A stretch of 64,000 nucleotides of DNA, taken from positions 1 to 64,000 of the forward strand of contig JAIETM010000004.1 of the NCBI GenBank assembly GCA_019745155.1. The letters are read 5' to 3'. The notes beneath the pieces are model-generated. The model was not told the DNA's origin, searched no databases, and saw only the letters and a program-made list of their open reading frames with translations. Of this stretch, positions 46,212 to 54,142 are shown in pieces. The translations under genes and the position numbers were made by a program. How positions within the stretch are numbered: the first letter of the stretch is position 1; each line of letters opens with the position of its first letter. The DNA is from Chitinophagaceae bacterium. GTDB lineage: Bacteria; Bacteroidota; Bacteroidia; Chitinophagales; Chitinophagaceae.

Positions 46212-46248
46212 CGATTGCTAATTTTCTATTTGAGATTTGAGATTGGGT

Positions 46249-46287
46249 AGTACGCTCTAAGTCAATATTTTGCTAGAGTACTTTTTG
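46249..46287 (+). terminator. Probable terminator of fabH
   Basis: AGTACGCTCTA (46249-46259) and TAGAGTACT (46274-46282) form a stem with a two-base bulge, followed by a T-rich tract that is also the start of a degenerate TTTTGACTTTTG-like spacer repeat. Confidence 0.6.
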
Positions 46288-46309
46288 CTTTTGACTTTTG
46301 ACTTTTTAC

Positions 46310-47698
46310 TTATGCAAAAGCTTTTTTGCTTTTGACTATCAAGCGCAACGGTTTTTTCCCCTTAATAATAATGGCCGTATTAACGGATGGCTCTTTTTTG
46401 TAGGGCGACGCAAAGGAGAAATTACTCAAGAGCTCAGCCATGATCATGTGCATTTGAATATTGGCAAAGCCTTGCCCTATGCACGTTCGCTTACCCTGAC
46501 CAAATGGGATATACACAAACGCCTTTCCCTGCAACTGTTGTTTCTCGAAATTATCTGGTGAGAATTGTTGAGGATTGCTCCAATAGTCTTTATGCTGATG
46601 CGTTACAAAAGGTGTAATCATCACGATAGAGCCCTTTCTAATCTTATACCCTTCAATAATATCATCCTCCATACATTGGCGCATGTAAAACCAAACCGGC
46701 GGATACAAACGCATGGCTTCTTTCATGCACAATTTCAAATAGGGTAAATCCCGTTGCTGCCAATCTTCCACACGCGCCACTTTATTGGCATCAAGCTCCT
46801 GATGAATCTTTTCTTGTTCACTTGGATGTTTGGCAATGCAATACAATGACCAACACAAAGCAGCTGCAGTTGTTTCAAAACCTGCAAACAAGAAATTCAT
46901 AATGGTATCCCTATAATCCTTGTACGTAATCGTTTTGTTGGCATAGGCTTCGTTCAAAACAGTCGTTAATGCACCCGGCGACAATTCTTTATTGATTAAT
47001 TGATGAATCATCGCATCAACCAATTGCTCCAGATAACGAATATCTTTTAGCTCAGCTTCTGTATTCTTTTTACCGACCAAGGCATTGACAAATAGTTGCA
47101 TAAATTTCTTGATGGCAGTATTGAAGCTAACTGCATGCATCACTTGTTGAAATGCATCAAAAATGGGATCGTTATCAAAATATTTGTCCGCTACAAATTG
47201 GGTACGGAATAAAATATTGTAGGCACTTTTATGAATACTCGACTCAATGTCTATTACTGGGTTCTTGGCACTTTGGATTCGCCATTGTGCCACCATCAAA
47301 GCAACTTCTTCTGCAACAGCGGTATAATGTTTTGCTAATGCATCAGGCGCAAACAGCGGCTTCACCAATTCATGTTGCTGTTGCCAATCAAGACCATCAC
47401 TTAAAAAAATACCATTACCTAGAAAATAATCCACTGCGCTGAGATCCTTTATCTCACGCACCACTTCACCTCTGGAATAATTCTGCACATTGTCTTTCAG
47501 GACATGCTTGATATAGTTTGGGTGGCTAATCAGCACGACTGGCTTATAAGGCTTTTTGTTGAAATAGTTGATATCACTAAACGCAACGATATCACCATAA
47601 TTCGCAGCTATTTGCTGTAAAGCTGAAATCGGGTGCTTTACAAAAGCCAACAAATATTTTGGGATGTGTAGTGTCGGTATAATGGGAATTTTAGGCAC
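46310..47698 (-). CDS. Cytochrome P450
   Basis: The 462-residue monooxygenase has all P450 landmarks: the I-helix oxygen-activating motif FAGFETTAA, the ExxR pair in KEAMRLYPP, and the heme loop FGQGKRTCIG with the axial Cys406. The substrate is unknown, but the length and pattern resemble bacterial class I/CYP110-like fatty-acid or terpene hydroxylases. The gene starts 4 bases after the stop of the E2-like gene, so the two are co-transcribed and may act in one pathway. Its last codons (coding VKSKKAFA) consist of the same TTTTGCTTTTGAC-type repeat as the adjoining spacer. Confidence 0.93.
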   Translation of the reverse strand: MPKIPIIPTLHIPKYLLAFVKHPISALQQIAANYGDIVAFSDINYFNKKPYKPVVLISHPNYIKHVLKDNVQNYSRGEVVREIKDLSAVDYFLGNGIFLSDGLDWQQQHELVKPLFAPDALAKHYTAVAEEVALMVAQWRIQSAKNPVIDIESSIHKSAYNILFRTQFVADKYFDNDPIFDAFQQVMHAVSFNTAIKKFMQLFVNALVGKKNTEAELKDIRYLEQLVDAMIHQLINKELSPGALTTVLNEAYANKTITYKDYRDTIMNFLFAGFETTAAALCWSLYCIAKHPSEQEKIHQELDANKVARVEDWQQRDLPYLKLCMKEAMRLYPPVWFYMRQCMEDDIIEGYKIRKGSIVMITPFVTHQHKDYWSNPQQFSPDNFEKQQLQGKAFVYIPFGQGKRTCIGQGFANIQMHMIMAELLSNFSFASPYKKEPSVNTAIIIKGKKPLRLIVKSKKAFA

Positions 47699-47702
47699 TC
47701 AA

Positions 47703-48461
47703 TCAGGGCAGTTTAAAATTGTCCAAGAAGTATTTAAATCGCACTGCCGCATTGGTAAGTCCTAACCCATTGCTAATGGTATGATCAGCAGAAAAATGCG
47801 CCGTCATATGTAAAGTATTGGTCTCTGGATGAACAAAAGGCCCAACCACTAATAAACCAAAGCTGTGGAAATGATTCGCAAAAGCGTAAGTAGGGTTTTC
47901 TATGGATATGTGTTTCTTCACTGCACCAAAATATACGCTACCAAAAATATCTTTTCGCTGCAGCGGCATACTCATCAGAATAGAATACCCAATTTGTCTG
48001 ATCCACTTGGGCAACTTCATGAAGTGCTTTTTATAGGAAGGTAATCCATCATCGCTTGTACTTCGCACATCACTCAAAATAGCCTCTATCTCAAAGACGG
48101 TCTTTTTGTTGAGCGCTCGGATGATTTTTGAAGCAAGTACTTTTTTGCCATTCACTTCTATTTCATACGGAAAGAATGCATCAGCATCTTCAAAAACATA
48201 GCGCAGGTTTCTCCAGCTTTTTAAAGCATGTAGTCTTTTCTGCTCTTGTAAAACCTGCCCATAACAATACAAGCAAACGGCAATCATAGAAGGTCCATGG
48301 CCATTAGCAGCTCTATACTCATCGAGCATTTTTTTGATATGCGTAACATCAGCTTTACCCAAAGCATGAATCAAATTTACTTTAGACCCTAGATAAGCGC
48401 TATCGGCCACCATGATATCGACAGGCTTGAGCTTTTCTGTAAAGTATTTTTTTGTAGGCAT
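47703..48461 (-). CDS. Stand-alone 2-oxoacid dehydrogenase E2-like acyltransferase (CAT fold)
   Basis: The 252-residue protein resembles the catalytic (chloramphenicol-acetyltransferase fold) domain of E2 components but lacks lipoyl and E1/E3-binding domains. The C-terminal catalytic signature reads SADHTISNGLG, where E2 enzymes have DHRxxDG: His227 is kept, but the Asp is replaced by Asn231. It may therefore be an acyltransferase with altered activity or a non-catalytic homologue. It is followed 4 bases later by the P450 gene on the same strand, which suggests a shared biosynthetic role. Alternative: an oligomeric scaffold. Confidence 0.65.
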   Translation of the reverse strand: MPTKKYFTEKLKPVDIMVADSAYLGSKVNLIHALGKADVTHIKKMLDEYRAANGHGPSMIAVCLYCYGQVLQEQKRLHALKSWRNLRYVFEDADAFFPYEIEVNGKKVLASKIIRALNKKTVFEIEAILSDVRSTSDDGLPSYKKHFMKLPKWIRQIGYSILMSMPLQRKDIFGSVYFGAVKKHISIENPTYAFANHFHSFGLLVVGPFVHPETNTLHMTAHFSADHTISNGLGLTNAAVRFKYFLDNFKLP

Positions 48462-48699
48462 ACAGTGCGACTAATAAGGTAGTCTAACAAATATAAAGTG
48501 AACAGAAAAGGTATGTAGAAAAATCTGGAAACAATGGTTATTAGTTACTGATTTGTGGTTTCCAGTTATTGATTATTGTTGATTATTAATTGTTTATTGA
48601 CGGCTTAAATTTGACAGGGTACGACAAGTTACTGTGCTTGTATTGTTGGGTTATCAGCAGCATAATCTTAGCATTTTAGCATAAGTAGCCAACCTAAGC

Positions 48700-48722
48700 C
48701 TCTTACTTCCGCTAGCGGAGAG
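48700..48722 (-). repeat. Palindromic repeat family, short copy (minus orientation)
   Basis: On the minus strand CTCTCCGC ta GCGGAAGtaAGAG carries the TCTCC...GGAAG signature of the family seen at 19651 and 51035. Confidence 0.5.
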
Positions 48723-48747
48723 ATTAAAACGAAACCCCTTTATTAGT

Positions 48748-49233
48748 TTAAAGAAAATACGACTGTATTGACGGAGCGATAATGAGAATTAAATGAATAA
48801 AGAAGGCTATAGCTAAGCCATTTTGTAATGAGACTTGAATTATTGTGTCGCTGTAAAACTTTCGTAACATTATTTCGTCGGCCTCATCTATCTCCTCCGA
48901 TGTTAAAGTTGTTTTGTCTAACTGACTTGCTTTCCTCAAAAAACTTGAACCTGCGAAAAAGGGAATAAACAATAAAACCAACTGCAATCTTGATAATTGC
49001 ACAACATCATAATCCTCAACTGCCATTTTCAATAAAAAGTAATATGGAATAAGATTTATCAATTGAAATATCAACTGAATTCGTTGCGAAAACTTTCTCT
49101 TTTCTTTAGATGATTTGTTTACCAAGGATGAGTTTGCATAAAGTAAAGCCTTAAAGACTTGCATCGAAATCCAATTTACAAATACAATTAGTCCTATGAA
49201 TTTAAACCAAAGAAGTAAGAATTTCCAAAACAT
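48748..49233 (-). CDS. Hypothetical membrane protein (accessory islet)
   Basis: The 161-residue protein has hydrophobic segments at about residues 4-30, 55-70, 83-97 and 136-158, with a charged middle containing LDKTTLTSEEIDEADEI. No family was recognised. The composition is AT-rich (many Lys, Ile, Phe, Leu codons ending in A/T), like the other islet genes and unlike its upstream neighbours. It is transcribed in the same direction as the nuclease-like and DarTG genes but separated by a 245-base spacer, so it is probably an independent unit. Confidence 0.55.
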   Translation of the reverse strand: MFWKFLLLWFKFIGLIVFVNWISMQVFKALLYANSSLVNKSSKEKRKFSQRIQLIFQLINLIPYYFLLKMAVEDYDVVQLSRLQLVLLFIPFFAGSSFLRKASQLDKTTLTSEEIDEADEIMLRKFYSDTIIQVSLQNGLAIAFFIHLILIIAPSIQSYFL

Positions 49234-49478
49234 AAGTACCAGTTTAACTATTTTAATAGAAGAATAATTTTAGGATTTCAACCAACAGTTTTAGACTTAG
49301 CATTTGGACGGCTTTCGGTGCACAAAACTTCAAGTTTGCACAGCCTGTTCCGTCTCAAAGGGGCAGCCTATATGACTCAAAACCATTTATAACTAGTACA
49401 GTTTAGAAGGTCCGAAATCGGTCGACTGTAAGTTTGTTAAATATCGCATTTAAAAATGTTTAGTTATCCATAATTAGT

Positions 49479-50810
49479 TTAGCTGAGAAAATGAAATAAC
49501 ATGATTTCAACTTGAACTTTATTATTAATATCGTCCTTCTGCCTAAAGAGAAAACTAAAACTGCTCATGTCCTTTACGCCTAAATACTGTACATAGTATT
49601 GATGCTCTTTTGCTTCTGCTTCAATTTGCCCCAACACGCTTGAGAAGTCCTTGTTATTAACAAAAAAGATGATGGCAACTTTTGTATCCCGCCAAGTTAT
49701 ATAATTATCAAATAATTGGTATATAGTTGAGTGGAAAACTGACGCTCCTTTCCACCATTTACATTCAGCAATGAAAAGATTGTTGCCTTTATCATCTTTA
49801 AGAAGGATATCCGTCCGTCCTTCCTTATTAAAGGTTTCCCCAGTCGCCGCAGTTTTCTCATATCTGCCAGTCAAGTTAGTTAAGAAATGATCCCTAAGCC
49901 CTTCTTCGTCCTGTCCAGAATAAATTTTTGGCTTTTTTTCTAAATCCTTTCCATAGTCAGAAAGCGTTTTTAAAATATCCTGATACAATTCGTTTGGAAA
50001 TTCAGAAGTTGGTAGCTTTTTCTTTCGAATAATTGGGGTTGGCTTGCTTGAAAAACTATCTTCGTAAATCCTATCGTATCCTTTTTGTGTTAATCTGAAA
50101 CACTCTGGTCCAGCAGATGCGTCCTCGTAACTAATATAACCTTCATCAATTAAAGCTTTCGCTGCATCACTAAAAATTTCCTGTTCTTTTGGATTTAGTT
50201 TTAGAATTACTTCAAAACGTAAGACATTCATCATTACTATGTGGTTTGCTCGGCTATTGCTTTTCCTAAACTGGTCAAGAATAATTTCTTGCATTTCTTC
50301 TTTTGATTTCATACTTATATCCACTGGTTGATCATTTATTTGTTGAGGTTTTTTAGAAGTTAATGAAGTGTAATAAGAAATAAACTCATTATTTATTATC
50401 TCATTAATATGTTTCAATGACTTGATTGTTTTTTCGCATTCTGTTACTATTTGAGAATGTTTTTCTCTATCAGCTGCCAAGCCAATCCATTTATTTAAGC
50501 TATTGATTGTGTCGTTGCCGAAATTTTCTATGTAAGGCATTAGCTCTAATAGAAGAAGCTTCTTTTCATCAAGGCTGAATAGATTGTCGTCAAGATATTG
50601 CCGAACACTCTCGACTAATTTAGAAGCAACAGAAACGGGCTCTAGCTCATTTTTGTAATTTTTATACAAATATGGTAAAGAGTAGGTGCCTTTTTCCTCG
50701 TTACGAACCAACTTAAACACGTTTTTCGAAGCAACTTTAGCCTTTAGAATTTGTAGTGGCTCGTAATACCTTGAAGTAAACCCAATTTTGCTATTAGTTA
50801 TACTTGTCAT
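49479..50810 (-). CDS. Putative PD-(D/E)xK nuclease-like protein of the accessory islet
   Basis: The 443-residue protein has a helical N-terminal half, a central winged-helix-like region (residues about 180-260, ending LTQKGYDRIYED) and a C-terminal domain with a PD-(D/E)xK signature: Asp334 in GRTDILLKDD, then Glu349 and Lys351 in FIAECKWWKG, spaced as in restriction-endonuclease folds. No methylase or helicase partner is adjacent. The family is unnamed to me; the fold and the islet context with DarTG suggest DNA cleavage in defence, but this is inference. AT-rich gene, start ATG at 50810. Confidence 0.55.
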   Translation of the reverse strand: MTSITNSKIGFTSRYYEPLQILKAKVASKNVFKLVRNEEKGTYSLPYLYKNYKNELEPVSVASKLVESVRQYLDDNLFSLDEKKLLLLELMPYIENFGNDTINSLNKWIGLAADREKHSQIVTECEKTIKSLKHINEIINNEFISYYTSLTSKKPQQINDQPVDISMKSKEEMQEIILDQFRKSNSRANHIVMMNVLRFEVILKLNPKEQEIFSDAAKALIDEGYISYEDASAGPECFRLTQKGYDRIYEDSFSSKPTPIIRKKKLPTSEFPNELYQDILKTLSDYGKDLEKKPKIYSGQDEEGLRDHFLTNLTGRYEKTAATGETFNKEGRTDILLKDDKGNNLFIAECKWWKGASVFHSTIYQLFDNYITWRDTKVAIIFFVNNKDFSSVLGQIEAEAKEHQYYVQYLGVKDMSSFSFLFRQKDDINNKVQVEIMLFHFLS

Positions 50811-50984
50811 TCTATAATATCAGTGTGTATTTATTTTTATTAAGATATCCGTATAATCCTATTCAGTTTTATATTAGAGCTTTCGTCATAGGTTACATGC
50901 TAATCTAATTTATGAAAATAAATCATATGCAAAAGCATCAAGACTATACATGTATAAGCCTTGAGAATGCTGATTTTTTAGTCT

Positions 50985-51018
50985 CCTAAGAGTCTTCCTC
51001 TATGAGGAGACTCTTAGG
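50985..51018 (-). repeat. Palindromic repeat family, minus-orientation copy
   Basis: CCTAAGAGTCTTCCTC tat GAGGAGACTCTTAGG forms a hairpin with one unpaired T. On the minus strand the core reads AGAGTCTCC...GGAAGACTCT, the same signature as the copy at 51035, so the two form an inverted pair. Confidence 0.7.
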
Positions 51019-51034
51019 CTTGAGCTCATTAATG

Positions 51035-51068
51035 CCACAGAGTCTCCGCGCTGCGGAAGACTCTGTGG
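51035..51068 (+). repeat. Palindromic repeat family, plus-orientation copy
   Basis: CCACAGAGTCTCCGC gct GCGGAAGACTCTGTGG forms a hairpin with one unpaired A on the right arm. Compared with the copy at 19651, a G-C pair has become A-T on both arms (GGGTCT/AGACCC versus GAGTCT/AGACTC), a compensatory change. Confidence 0.75.
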
Positions 51069-51163
51069 GAATATAAAACTTTTACAGGCAGTTAATGCCT
51101 TTCGTCCGTCACACTTTCATATTCTTCTCAAATAAAAAATGTAGTGTATCACACTCAAAGTGC

Positions 51164-51790
51164 CTATTCAACGCCAAATAGTTTTCTTTGTTCTGGTGTT
51201 AGATTTTCAATCCTTTTTTTAGTCGCTTTATATATTTCTGGCAATAGCTCTTGAATTGGATAATGTGACCAATGTAAAAAAAGTGTCGTGTATTTTAAGC
51301 ATAGACTGATAATCTCATCTATCGATGCTTCACTGTAAATGTTGACTGGCTTTTTGGCAAATTTATTTAGTTTGTTTAGCTGCATTTCTTTATTTGCAGC
51401 CCCAAACCATCTGTATTTATGAGAAAAGTCCAATTGCCAGTGTGCCATTACATTTCTACATTCCATAATTTTTGTCAATTCTTCGCCGACTGAAGAATTG
51501 GGAGTATGTGCTAAAAAATATGGCTCTTGTAATTTTACTAATTGGCAGACTATTTTAATCTTGTTGCTAAATGTCATTTCTGTTTGCCAAAAGAAAGTTT
51601 GACGAAAACTCTCTATTTGTTCGTCATAATCTTTATCCGTCAAGGCAATAACATAATGTCTAGCAATAAACAGTTCAATAACCTGCTCAACGTCTATCGC
51701 ATGTTTTATTACTTTACCTCTCCATCTTTCAGCCATTTTCAAGTATTCATCCCATTCTTGAAAAGGCTCTTTAGAATTTGTCTTTGTCAT
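51164..51790 (-). CDS. HEPN-like hypothetical protein of the accessory islet
   Basis: The 208-residue, mostly helical protein carries the motif RNVMAH at residues 112-117, matching the RNxxxH signature of HEPN ribonucleases often found in toxins and abortive-infection proteins. The flanking helices (VEQVIELFIARHY early, and ISLCLKYTTLFLHW late) fit the four-helix HEPN bundle. No antitoxin (MNT-like nucleotidyltransferase) lies next to it, so it may act alone. Other explanations for the motif are possible. The gene is AT-rich. Confidence 0.5.
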   Translation of the reverse strand: MTKTNSKEPFQEWDEYLKMAERWRGKVIKHAIDVEQVIELFIARHYVIALTDKDYDEQIESFRQTFFWQTEMTFSNKIKIVCQLVKLQEPYFLAHTPNSSVGEELTKIMECRNVMAHWQLDFSHKYRWFGAANKEMQLNKLNKFAKKPVNIYSEASIDEIISLCLKYTTLFLHWSHYPIQELLPEIYKATKKRIENLTPEQRKLFGVE

Positions 51791-52138
51791 AAATGCTTTA
51801 AAAATATGTTATATGTTACGCTGCTTAAAAGAATTAATCCTGCTGAAAAAAATATTTGCTATCTAAATAATGAGCAGTCAGCACGTTTTTCGTCACATCC
51901 AAAACCGCCACATGACATACAACGTTCGAGGCTTGCCGCAGAGCTGGGATTGTTGCTGTATCTTCCTAGCAACTGAAGCCGATTGAAAACTGATTTTAAA
52001 GTTAACAACTAAAAGCCAAATAGAATTCGGTCAAGTCCAATATTAGCTGATAGCAATATCCTGCAGATGCATGTTTATTTCGTCCACCAGCCTTACTGCG
52101 AAACTTTTTGTTGGGCGTTTGTTGTTATTAGAAAAAAA
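51791..52138. other. 348-base spacer between darG and the HEPN-like gene
   Basis: No gene is seen. On the minus strand the spacer starts with the segment GCCCAACAAAAAGTTTCGC and contains, about 170 bases later, GCGGCAAGCCTCGAACGTTG; the two ends share an imperfect inverted similarity (CGCAG..GCTGG against CCAGC..CTGCG). This resembles, but does not match, a long integron attC-type site. Confidence 0.35.
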
Positions 52139-53170
52139 TCAAGCGAAATTAGCCGACTGTAAATGTCGAAGAGAGAGTTCGAGATATTTTGGATTCGAAA
52201 ACAAGGTACGCTTTCGGTCACTCCATTTTTCCAATCCTTTTGAAATTGCTTGTTTATCTAAAGTGTTTTCTTTTGTTGATATATAATCTATAGATGACAA
52301 TAACTCTAAGGCAAAGTCAGAGTAAAACCCTCTCAAAAAGACAATGGTTTTATTTGCTATCTTCAACAGCTCGTTGTCTTTTTCAACATGACTTTTTACC
52401 ATTTCATAAGCATCTGCGACTAAGGTTAAGGGCTCAAAGGGCTTTTTATTCATATCGCTATACCCCATTAGATAGCTTCCGTTAATTGCATTTAATACAA
52501 ATCGGACTTTTCCAGAATATGGTCCATAAAAGTTTGGTTCAAACTCTAATTTGAAAAACTTCTTTGCGCCGAATTTCTGCAAGAAATAGCAGATTTTCTC
52601 ACTCGAAAATTCAGAAACATATTCGCCATTTTTAACCAGGTCATACAAAACATACAATAGCAAAGCTCGGGCATCCGTAAGTTTTACTCTTTCCTTCATT
52701 AGATGCTCTTGAATTTGAATGGTTGGTTCGTAGACATAAATATCAATGTTTAAATATCCAAGCTTTTGTTCTATTATTTTTTTAACTTTCTCCCAGTTCA
52801 AACCACCGTTTCCAGCTCCAAGTGGTGGTATTGCTATACTCTTTATTTGCCTATGATTAATTACTTCAACAAGATTGTCTAGACCATCTTCAATATACTT
52901 ATACTCTGAAGGTTTTCTCCAATCGGTTTTTGTTGGGAAATTAATAATAATCCGCTCTCCTGTCGCCGTGTTGCTATCTAGTGTCACAAACATTCTTCCG
53001 ACTTTTACTTCCTCATTTTTGGATGCTTTTTCATAGGCTTTATAATTGTTAGGGTACGCTTTTTTGAATTGCAAAGCAATACCTTTTCCCATAACACCCA
53101 TTGTATTTACAGTATTTACTAGAGCTTGGGCGTTACTGTCTAAAATGTTACCTGTAATATATTGTATCAT
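52139..53170 (-). CDS. darG: DarG-like antitoxin: macro-domain DNA ADP-ribosylglycohydrolase
   Basis: The 343-residue protein has an N-terminal macrodomain: GNILDSNAQALVNTVNTMG, then KGIALQFKKAYP, the TKTDWRKPS loop holding the catalytic Lys, and PPLGAGNGGLNW binding the ADP-ribose. The C-terminal half (from about residue 165) matches the DarG-specific domain that binds and blocks DarT. DarG removes ADP-ribose from thymidines in ssDNA and neutralises DarT. It follows darT by 9 bases on the same strand, the canonical darT-darG order. Together they form a DNA ADP-ribosylation toxin-antitoxin system with a phage-defence role in other bacteria. Confidence 0.93.
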   Translation of the reverse strand: MIQYITGNILDSNAQALVNTVNTMGVMGKGIALQFKKAYPNNYKAYEKASKNEEVKVGRMFVTLDSNTATGERIIINFPTKTDWRKPSEYKYIEDGLDNLVEVINHRQIKSIAIPPLGAGNGGLNWEKVKKIIEQKLGYLNIDIYVYEPTIQIQEHLMKERVKLTDARALLLYVLYDLVKNGEYVSEFSSEKICYFLQKFGAKKFFKLEFEPNFYGPYSGKVRFVLNAINGSYLMGYSDMNKKPFEPLTLVADAYEMVKSHVEKDNELLKIANKTIVFLRGFYSDFALELLSSIDYISTKENTLDKQAISKGLEKWSDRKRTLFSNPKYLELSLRHLQSANFA

Positions 53171-53179
53171 GTTTGTTTA

Positions 53180-53836
53180 TTAATAGTAAGCGCCAGGTAT
53201 TACCTTTATTTTATCTTCTTCAATTCCTAAATCTACTAACTTATTTTTAGCATTGTCATTATAACACCCAAAACCTATTATATGACTTGAGTCTACATCA
53301 CCAGAAACTAAAAATTCGGCCTGCTTTTTTCTCTTCACATTTAAATTATCTTGTCCGCCCCAATATGAAGCCCGAACCGCATTCCAGTCAATAATTTCTG
53401 GTAATTCGCTAACTTTTGTTTTATCGTAAAATGAAGTTAAGTTGTCAGTTGCATGACCGTCTGAAAAATAATAATCCTTATGATGCTTAATGATTTTGGC
53501 AATTGAACATACCATGTAAATTATTTCATAAGCAGGAGTAGCCTTAGTGACAAAATTACCTCCGTTTTGTATAACGTAAAGCATTGGCATTTTTATACCG
53601 AAATAAAATGGAATGAAGTCTCCGAGAGTGATTGTAGATGCATCAATATCAAAGATATCGCCATTGTCCACCTTAACAAGCTTAGTGTCTCTATTACTTA
53701 TTAAGCTGATGTCACCAATAGCTACATAATCAGGGTTATGGTTTGGAGAATTCCTATGTGTTATCCCATATTGTAATATATGCTCTATATTGTCAATATG
53801 TGTCATGCGATAAACCTTAATTTCTGCCAAATCCAT
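53180..53836 (-). CDS. darT: DarT toxin, ssDNA thymidine ADP-ribosyltransferase (DUF4433)
   Basis: The 218-residue toxin modifies thymidine bases in single-stranded DNA with ADP-ribose from NAD+, blocking replication. The N-terminal THIDNIEHILQYGI segment is the NAD-binding start typical of DUF4433, FYFGIKMPMLYVI lies in the middle, and the catalytic Glu174 sits in the conserved KKQAEFLV motif. The gene starts the operon; a -7 box, TATATTCG at 53857-53864 on the minus strand, lies 20 bases upstream. The AT-rich composition fits horizontal acquisition. darG follows directly. Confidence 0.93.
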   Translation of the reverse strand: MDLAEIKVYRMTHIDNIEHILQYGITHRNSPNHNPDYVAIGDISLISNRDTKLVKVDNGDIFDIDASTITLGDFIPFYFGIKMPMLYVIQNGGNFVTKATPAYEIIYMVCSIAKIIKHHKDYYFSDGHATDNLTSFYDKTKVSELPEIIDWNAVRASYWGGQDNLNVKRKKQAEFLVSGDVDSSHIIGFGCYNDNAKNKLVDLGIEEDKIKVIPGAYY

Positions 53837-54142
53837 TTAATTTCAATTTGAAACTTCGAATATAGCAATTTCAAAATTTAAATGGTTTCCAGTTCAATAA
53901 CGCCCAATTCTAATATATGCTAAATAAATTACACGAAAAAACATCATCTCTTATAGTTTCTAGTTTATAGTTGCCCATGATTATTGCTGATTGTCAATTG
54001 AATATTGTTAATTGTTGAGTGGCCCATAAACTACAAACCACCCTCCTACGCTAAAGCTTCGGTGGCCTTCTAAACAAAGCTTCAGCATAGTTGAGGCAGG
54101 CTAACCACTAACCTCTAACTAGTAACCACTAACTACTAACCT
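53837..54142. other. 306-base spacer with an imperfect hairpin and degenerate tandem repeats
   Basis: It holds the darT promoter region at the left, a 16-bp imperfect hairpin (54046-54061 with 54075-54090) and, at the right, a degenerate CTAACC/ACTAAC-type tandem repeat that runs into the 3' end of the formate-THF ligase gene. No gene is seen. Confidence 0.6.

Follow-up and report, generated by a model that had tools for sequence, protein, structure and literature searches.

A candidate single-protein defense nuclease of a Chitinophagaceae bacterium with a probably replaced front half and a winged helix common to SEFIR and membrane proteins

Introduction

Shedu is a stand-alone PD-(D/E)xK nuclease with a large front half. 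The defense nucleases McrC and NucC, both of the restriction-endonuclease fold, work alongside a GTPase partner or through a cyclic-nucleotide signal. A further single-gene phage defense candidate, PDC-S54, is listed in PADLOC as PDLC05036; no paper on it was found by that name in the open-access literature (bioRxiv excluded). According to the accessible text of the DefensePredictor study (PMC13092281), PD-(D/E)xK domains are present in 13 of 31 additional validated systems. Embedded defenses are the subject of a 2024 preprint by Payne et al. Likewise, the accessible text of Kaur et al. (2020, PMC7159879) describes effector-associated domains, in which a small non-catalytic domain is reused on different effectors. 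In that text, wHTH domains are placed among the effector-module domains and not among the effector-associated adaptor domains.

Here we describe a gene from a 64,000-nucleotide stretch of a Chitinophagaceae bacterium contig (hereafter the window). An earlier note, made from the DNA letters and their translations, had singled out this gene as a stand-alone nuclease candidate. On the basis of sequence comparison, structure prediction and genomic context, we consider it to encode a single-protein anti-phage nuclease that was made by domain exchange, is gated by its front half and cuts DNA after infection. We give this reading a probability of roughly 0.55.

Results

Gene and protein layout

The open reading frame listed first in Table 1 is a genuine gene of 443 codons. 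Scored for codon usage, residues 1-165 reach -0.08 in their own frame, compared with -0.46 to -0.78 in the five others, and lie near the score of the remainder of the gene. The open frame of the first 166 codons survived in 0 of 20,000 mononucleotide shuffles. Because the own-frame score is the highest and no shuffle left the frame open, the N-terminal part did not arise as a random lengthening of the frame.

An AlphaFold2 model of the whole protein, based on a 20-row alignment, has a confident winged helix at residues 169-252, a mostly confident region from about 270 to 443, and helices of low confidence over residues 1-165. Of the helical and winged-helix-like front described in the earlier note, the winged helix is therefore the part predicted with confidence. 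That front is also shorter than proposed: the nuclease starts near residues 263-273, so that about 260 residues precede it instead of about 330. Since the pTM of the whole model is only 0.44, the mutual placement of the three parts is not fixed by it. The top Foldseek rows for this model (DNA polymerase beta, rmsd about 20 A) were rejected as spurious joins. In searches with the N-terminal 161 residues, there was no match beyond the genome of origin among 99 genomes and none among plasmids. Four other matches were obtained among 395 genomes of the phylum, at E 0.0027-0.0083.

Table 1. Positions of the nuclease gene, its parts and the surrounding features in the window.
Feature	Position	Strand	Remarks
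Whole gene, 443-aa chimeric nuclease	49479..50810	-	ATG start, stop included; PADLOC PDC-S54 on residues 263-441
PD-(D/E)xK nuclease domain, residues 263-443	49482..50024	-	Conserved E303, E325, D334, E349, K351, Q365
Winged-helix module, residues 167-254	50049..50312	-	Also on SEFIR and membrane proteins
Helical N-terminal region, residues 1-165	50316..50810	-	Low-confidence helices, coding-like codon usage, no convincing relative
Variable slot	46231..53949	.	Both flanks match same-genus genome G451, which holds a different 4.3 kb here
DarT	53180-53836	-	Pfam E 7.5e-40
DarG	52139-53170	-	NCBIfam E 2.9e-116
208-aa protein	51164-51790	-	No profile match above cut-off; contains RNVMAHW
161-aa small membrane protein	48748-49233	-	Four hydrophobic segments; 245 bp downstream of nuclease
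Two overlapping imperfect inverted repeats (pairs I2, I16)	50989-51073		Upstream of nuclease gene

The nuclease domain

The C-terminal domain contains the motif GRTDI-x14-ECK, in which D334 lies upstream of E349 and K351, followed by Q365; E349 and K351 are located where the earlier note had placed them. For comparison, 40 nuclease proteins were aligned, comprising the window protein, 18 loci of the same phylum, all 13 IMG/VR loci and 8 of the 22 plasmid matches. E302, E303, R306, E325, D334, E349 and W353 are identical in all 40, and K351 is kept in 39. This conservation points to metal-dependent nuclease activity of the domain. A relative on an archaeal plasmid (Haloplanus; L090, 4365-5564) has alanine at the catalytic lysine position and is possibly inactive through this change.

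When the last 181 residues were modeled alone, AlphaFold2 reached a pLDDT of 86.2 and a pTM of 0.85. The best structural neighbors in VIA-align are BglII and OkrAI, both at Z 8.7 (133 residues at 4.0 A and 140 residues at 3.9 A), where a Z near 8 is modest. They are followed by McrC (7.8), NucC (7.0), Card1 (6.3) and DrdV (6.2), and unrelated folds (acetyl-CoA carboxylase, RNA polymerase subunit) come up from Z 5.0 down. With the same model, Foldseek returned no match at E<=0.001 in the PDB, where DrdV was best at 6.6e-3, and a viral structure library returned none at that threshold. A sequence search of solved structures with the protein gave 0 matches.

Several other candidates were discarded. 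Foldseek rows for polymerase beta/lambda, YaeQ and terminal uridylyltransferase, obtained with the nuclease alone, mostly have large rmsd or short alignments. Two weak matches of the nuclease alignment to mannosyl-3-phosphoglycerate synthase (39 positions, E 0.42 and 0.54) were judged to be chance. The Pfam families DUF234, PDDEXK_9, HSDR_N and NERD matched weakly, under the cut-off wherever bits were shown, and were set aside.

Both features by which the PD-(D/E)xK superfamily is recognized are present in the domain, namely the restriction-endonuclease core fold and the D and E-x-K residues with an upstream E. The top structural rows and the sequence motif agree, supporting a restriction-endonuclease fold as predicted by the model. 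The C-terminal PD-(D/E)xK domain proposed in the earlier note is thus upheld by residue conservation, model confidence and restriction-enzyme neighbors. Structure prediction was also the check on which that proposal had been staked, and it left the proposal standing.

Relationship to PDC-S54

In PADLOC, residues 263-441 match positions 231-406 of the 410-position PDC-S54 profile at E 3.5e-66. The front half of the profile (positions 1-230) is unmatched by the window protein. Near-complete matches to the profile were obtained for the five relatives scanned (L003, L004, L007, L009, L010). Because PADLOC already includes the nuclease family among its defense candidates, the window protein does not represent a new type of enzyme.

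Eight of the 40 nuclease proteins served to build a model of the standard front half, which recognizes 36 of the 40 at E<=1e-3, with the 8 seeds counted among the 36. The window protein reaches E 0.024 through one 51-residue helix and is one of four proteins without the standard front half. Two of the others (L064, L065) form a group in the nuclease tree and have front halves of roughly 150 residues, and the front half of the last (L091) is different again. In a maximum-likelihood tree of the nuclease, rooted at its midpoint, the window lies inside a set of 16 rows with support of 100/96, 14 of which have the standard front half. Nearest to it by tree path are L035, from a viral contig, and L063, from the same family (54% identity), the forks next to the window being less firm (94/83, 92/90). 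Because the window protein lacks the standard front half yet groups among nucleases that carry it, replacement of the front half in the window lineage is probably the simplest reading of these sequences.

The three-part architecture was found nowhere else among 395 genomes of the phylum and 195 of the family, nor among plasmids, phage records, IMG/VR loci or the seven winged-helix loci described below. The plasmid matches of longest coverage (L086, L089) carry the standard front half. As the architecture is a single case, it may be an odd or decaying fusion. The long terminal branch of the window nuclease (0.93, compared with a median of 0.4) would also fit a recent, non-functional fusion that is decaying in one genome. 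However, the frame is intact, the conserved residues examined are all kept and codon usage is coding-like throughout, and we regard such decay as highly improbable.

The winged-helix module

A pattern scan that covered 84,980 species with one genome each yielded seven loci with the winged helix. In six of these (L029-L034), it is N-terminal in a protein of 395-399 residues with a SEFIR/TIR domain at the C-terminus. The SEFIR domain was assigned by profile in L031, L032 and L022 (PADLOC bSEFIR, E 7e-68 to 3e-71), the last of which has a contig as long as that of L030 and is probably the same record; the remaining loci were read from sequence. In the seventh locus (L028), the winged helix is followed by three predicted membrane segments, and the protein has no Pfam or PADLOC match. 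Stand-alone tandem winged helices occur in two further genomes (G095, G725). Seven genomes of the class match the winged-helix alignment, four of them at E 0.001-0.008. A tandem winged-helix protein of 165 residues is followed by a SEC-C motif protein in L077 (6851-8258).

The nuclease is absent from all winged-helix SEFIR, membrane and tandem proteins found. No winged helix of this kind was found in IMG/VR, plasmid or phage records, or on an NTPase core protein in the loci read. Identity to the winged helix of the window is 45-54% in the five rows aligned (L029, L031-L034). In the alignment, the module's first methionine in L028, L029 and L031 falls on M167 inside the window protein, which would follow from the addition of a helical segment ahead of a formerly N-terminal module. 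Translation from M167 as an internal start is possible. From its recurrence on these proteins, the winged helix appears to be an exchangeable module with a regulatory role.

Many winged helices bind DNA, and the structural matches of this one (residues about 169-252) include MarR, PadR and TubR-type proteins at Z 8-9. Together with McrC among the neighbors of the nuclease, these matches favor the best rival to our reading: a type IV-like restriction enzyme, dependent on sequence or modification, in which the winged helix binds and reads DNA and the nuclease cuts nearby, without abortive infection. The same winged helix is also carried by SEFIR and membrane proteins, which argues against this, as DNA targeting is harder to explain there. 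In addition, no modification enzyme was found alongside the window gene. Of the 11 copies of the winged helix examined, 9 have a net charge of 0 or below and two (L033, L034) a net charge of +2, a weak hint of protein contact rather than DNA contact. We consider the restriction-enzyme explanation unlikely. In a more far-reaching reading, the winged helix might be a previously undescribed, exchangeable trigger or adaptor domain of Bacteroidota immunity. It would act through protein-protein contact, either self-pairing or contact with a phage or partner protein, and would be coupled separately to SEFIR/TIR domains, membrane disruption and DNA cleavage. We put this role forward tentatively.

Genomic setting

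The nuclease gene is located in a variable slot, because the same-genus genome G451 differs between flanks that match the window at 85-93% identity (22.9-46.2 kb and 53.95-64 kb) and because the nuclease is missing from both same-genus genomes searched (G451, G529). A stretch of low GC content at about 48.5-54.0 kb (31-37%, compared with 40-47% in most of the window) contains the nuclease together with a complete DarT-DarG toxin-antitoxin pair (52139-53836, minus strand).

Two neighbors without assigned function lie on the same strand as the nuclease. The RNVMAHW sequence of the 208-aa protein presumably resembles the HEPN Rx4-6H motif, and the 161-aa membrane protein has no notable family match in Pfam, PADLOC, NCBIfam or PHROG. 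Given that DarTG shows toxin-antitoxin pairs to be present here, the nuclease could be the toxin of a pair with one of these neighbors. However, it is separated from them by gaps of 353 bp (to the 208-aa gene) and 245 bp, the 353-bp gap contains inverted repeats that are possibly a two-way terminator, and no constant partner gene was found on reading the neighbors of 18 nuclease loci. We judge a toxin-antitoxin pair to be quite improbable.

The earlier note had observed that the gene has no methyltransferase or helicase neighbor. This proved correct: no methyltransferase or restriction helicase was found among the open reading frames of 44-56 kb, which were inspected by eye, with Pfam and PADLOC searches of five island genes. 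Its further statement that the gene is unlike restriction systems holds for the window locus, but several relatives of both halves have type I or type IIG restriction genes around or next to them.

Relatives and their distribution

The winged-helix SEFIR/TIR proteins of three loci lie within type I restriction operons, after hsdS. In L029 (1879-10424), the gene is between HsdS and HsdR, with HsdM, HsdS and HsdR identified by Pfam. L030, read from sequence, has a similar arrangement plus one 209-aa open reading frame ahead of HsdR. In L031, a 1246-aa helicase-like gene intervenes (read from sequence; HsdM and HsdS by Pfam). The other three loci (L032-L034, 2466-7176) contain a conserved trio, consisting of a 472-aa protein that is ATPase-like by reading, a 668-aa HATPase protein and the winged-helix SEFIR protein. 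The HATPase domain was assigned by Pfam on L032 only, and the 668-aa protein of that locus has no PADLOC match at E<=1e-5.

Restriction genes also adjoin several relatives of the nuclease. In L057, the nuclease lies directly between HsdS (read from sequence) and an HsdR split into two open reading frames. It is 2 bp after HsdS in L051 and 41 bp after a type IIG enzyme in L052, and adjoins a type I methyltransferase on the opposite strand in L062. Other neighbors are AriA/AriB-like genes in L058 and an LmuB-like gene in L054, while AbiEii is near L050. These neighbors come from profile scans of 7 of the 18 Bacteroidota nuclease loci; because the 7 were chosen by eye, the list is a description and carries no enrichment statistic. 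The other 11 loci were read only, and some of them have no obvious defense gene. In L067 (G315, 8222 onward), the frame is broken inside the nuclease domain, and the contig also carries transposase-like genes.

Overall, relatives are present in 18 of 395 genomes of the phylum (the genome of origin included, and one by winged helix alone), 22 of 72,556 plasmid records, 2 of 50,697 phage records and 13 IMG/VR contigs, where the genome-contig and IMG/VR scans use short patterns by which relatives can be missed. PDC-S54 nuclease relatives occur in several phyla. No close viral relatives of the full protein were confirmed, and no match was obtained when E. coli genomes were searched at the nucleotide level with a divergent relative from an E. 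coli plasmid. Residues 269-410 match a phage protein family whose function is not assigned (phrog_9664, E 4e-8). The relatives on plasmids, phage records and IMG/VR contigs, and this family match, would be consistent with a housekeeping or mobile-element nuclease that serves repair, recombination or element maintenance and is unrelated to defense. The rare and patchy distribution in the phylum, the variable slot, and the restriction and other defense genes at the loci scanned argue against such a role, which we consider improbable.

Discussion

The reading that we favor is an anti-phage nuclease produced by domain exchange. In a PDC-S54-type nuclease, a helical segment and a winged-helix module would have taken the place of the usual front half. 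Before infection, the nuclease would be kept inactive or as a monomer by this front half. Once infection begins, the front half would bind a trigger derived from the phage or from damage, whether a protein or a DNA structure, and the nuclease would be released or assembled for metal-dependent DNA cleavage. This cleavage would stop the infection, probably via abortive infection. For the window protein, we infer sensing of a trigger, assembly and defense from the modularity and genomic setting of the gene, and nuclease activity from residue conservation.

If the winged helix is an exchangeable trigger or adaptor domain, the window nuclease would be an experiment of nature that has placed a PDC-S54 nuclease under a new sensor. 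A PDC-S54 relative in which a module also carried by SEFIR and membrane proteins has probably taken over from the standard front half would provide a direct route to separating sensing from killing. Should phage specificity follow the front half, the winged helix would serve as a marker for further defense effectors. What appears new is the swapped front half, with a winged helix common to SEFIR and membrane proteins; neither was found in the open-access literature (bioRxiv excluded).

Among known systems, type I, II and III restriction-modification systems differ from the window locus in having an adjacent methyltransferase or helicase. The McrC and NucC structures resemble the window nuclease at Z 7.8 and 7.0, respectively, but no GTPase or cyclic-nucleotide partner was recognized beside the window gene.

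The likeness to Shedu invoked in the earlier note requires a distinction. A stand-alone nuclease of defense type is supported by the fold, the winged helix and the adjoining DarTG, and the window protein shares with Shedu a stand-alone PD-(D/E)xK layout and a long front half. In the structure comparison, 128 residues of E. coli SduA (8ps4) align to the window nuclease at Z 5.7 with 19% identity. However, SduA structures are only mid-table in VIA-align (Z 5.7 and 5.3), with 8ps4 at rank 18 and 17 rows above or level with it. Moreover, Pfam, PADLOC and NCBIfam, which we take to include SduA/DUF4263 models, gave no match to such a profile at E<=1. Membership of the Shedu family is therefore not supported, and Shedu-type logic, in which the front half varies and the nuclease is conserved, is apt as an analogy.

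The likeness to effector-associated domains, as described in the accessible text of PMC7159879, is one of idea. A closer relationship exists with bSEFIR and the proteins of L029-L034, which have the winged helix in common with the window protein. Their effector is a SEFIR/TIR domain, for which the window protein has no match at E<=1 in Pfam or PADLOC, and in the window protein it is a nuclease. With PDC-S54, the window protein shares the nuclease half, and the PDC-S54 front half is replaced by another.
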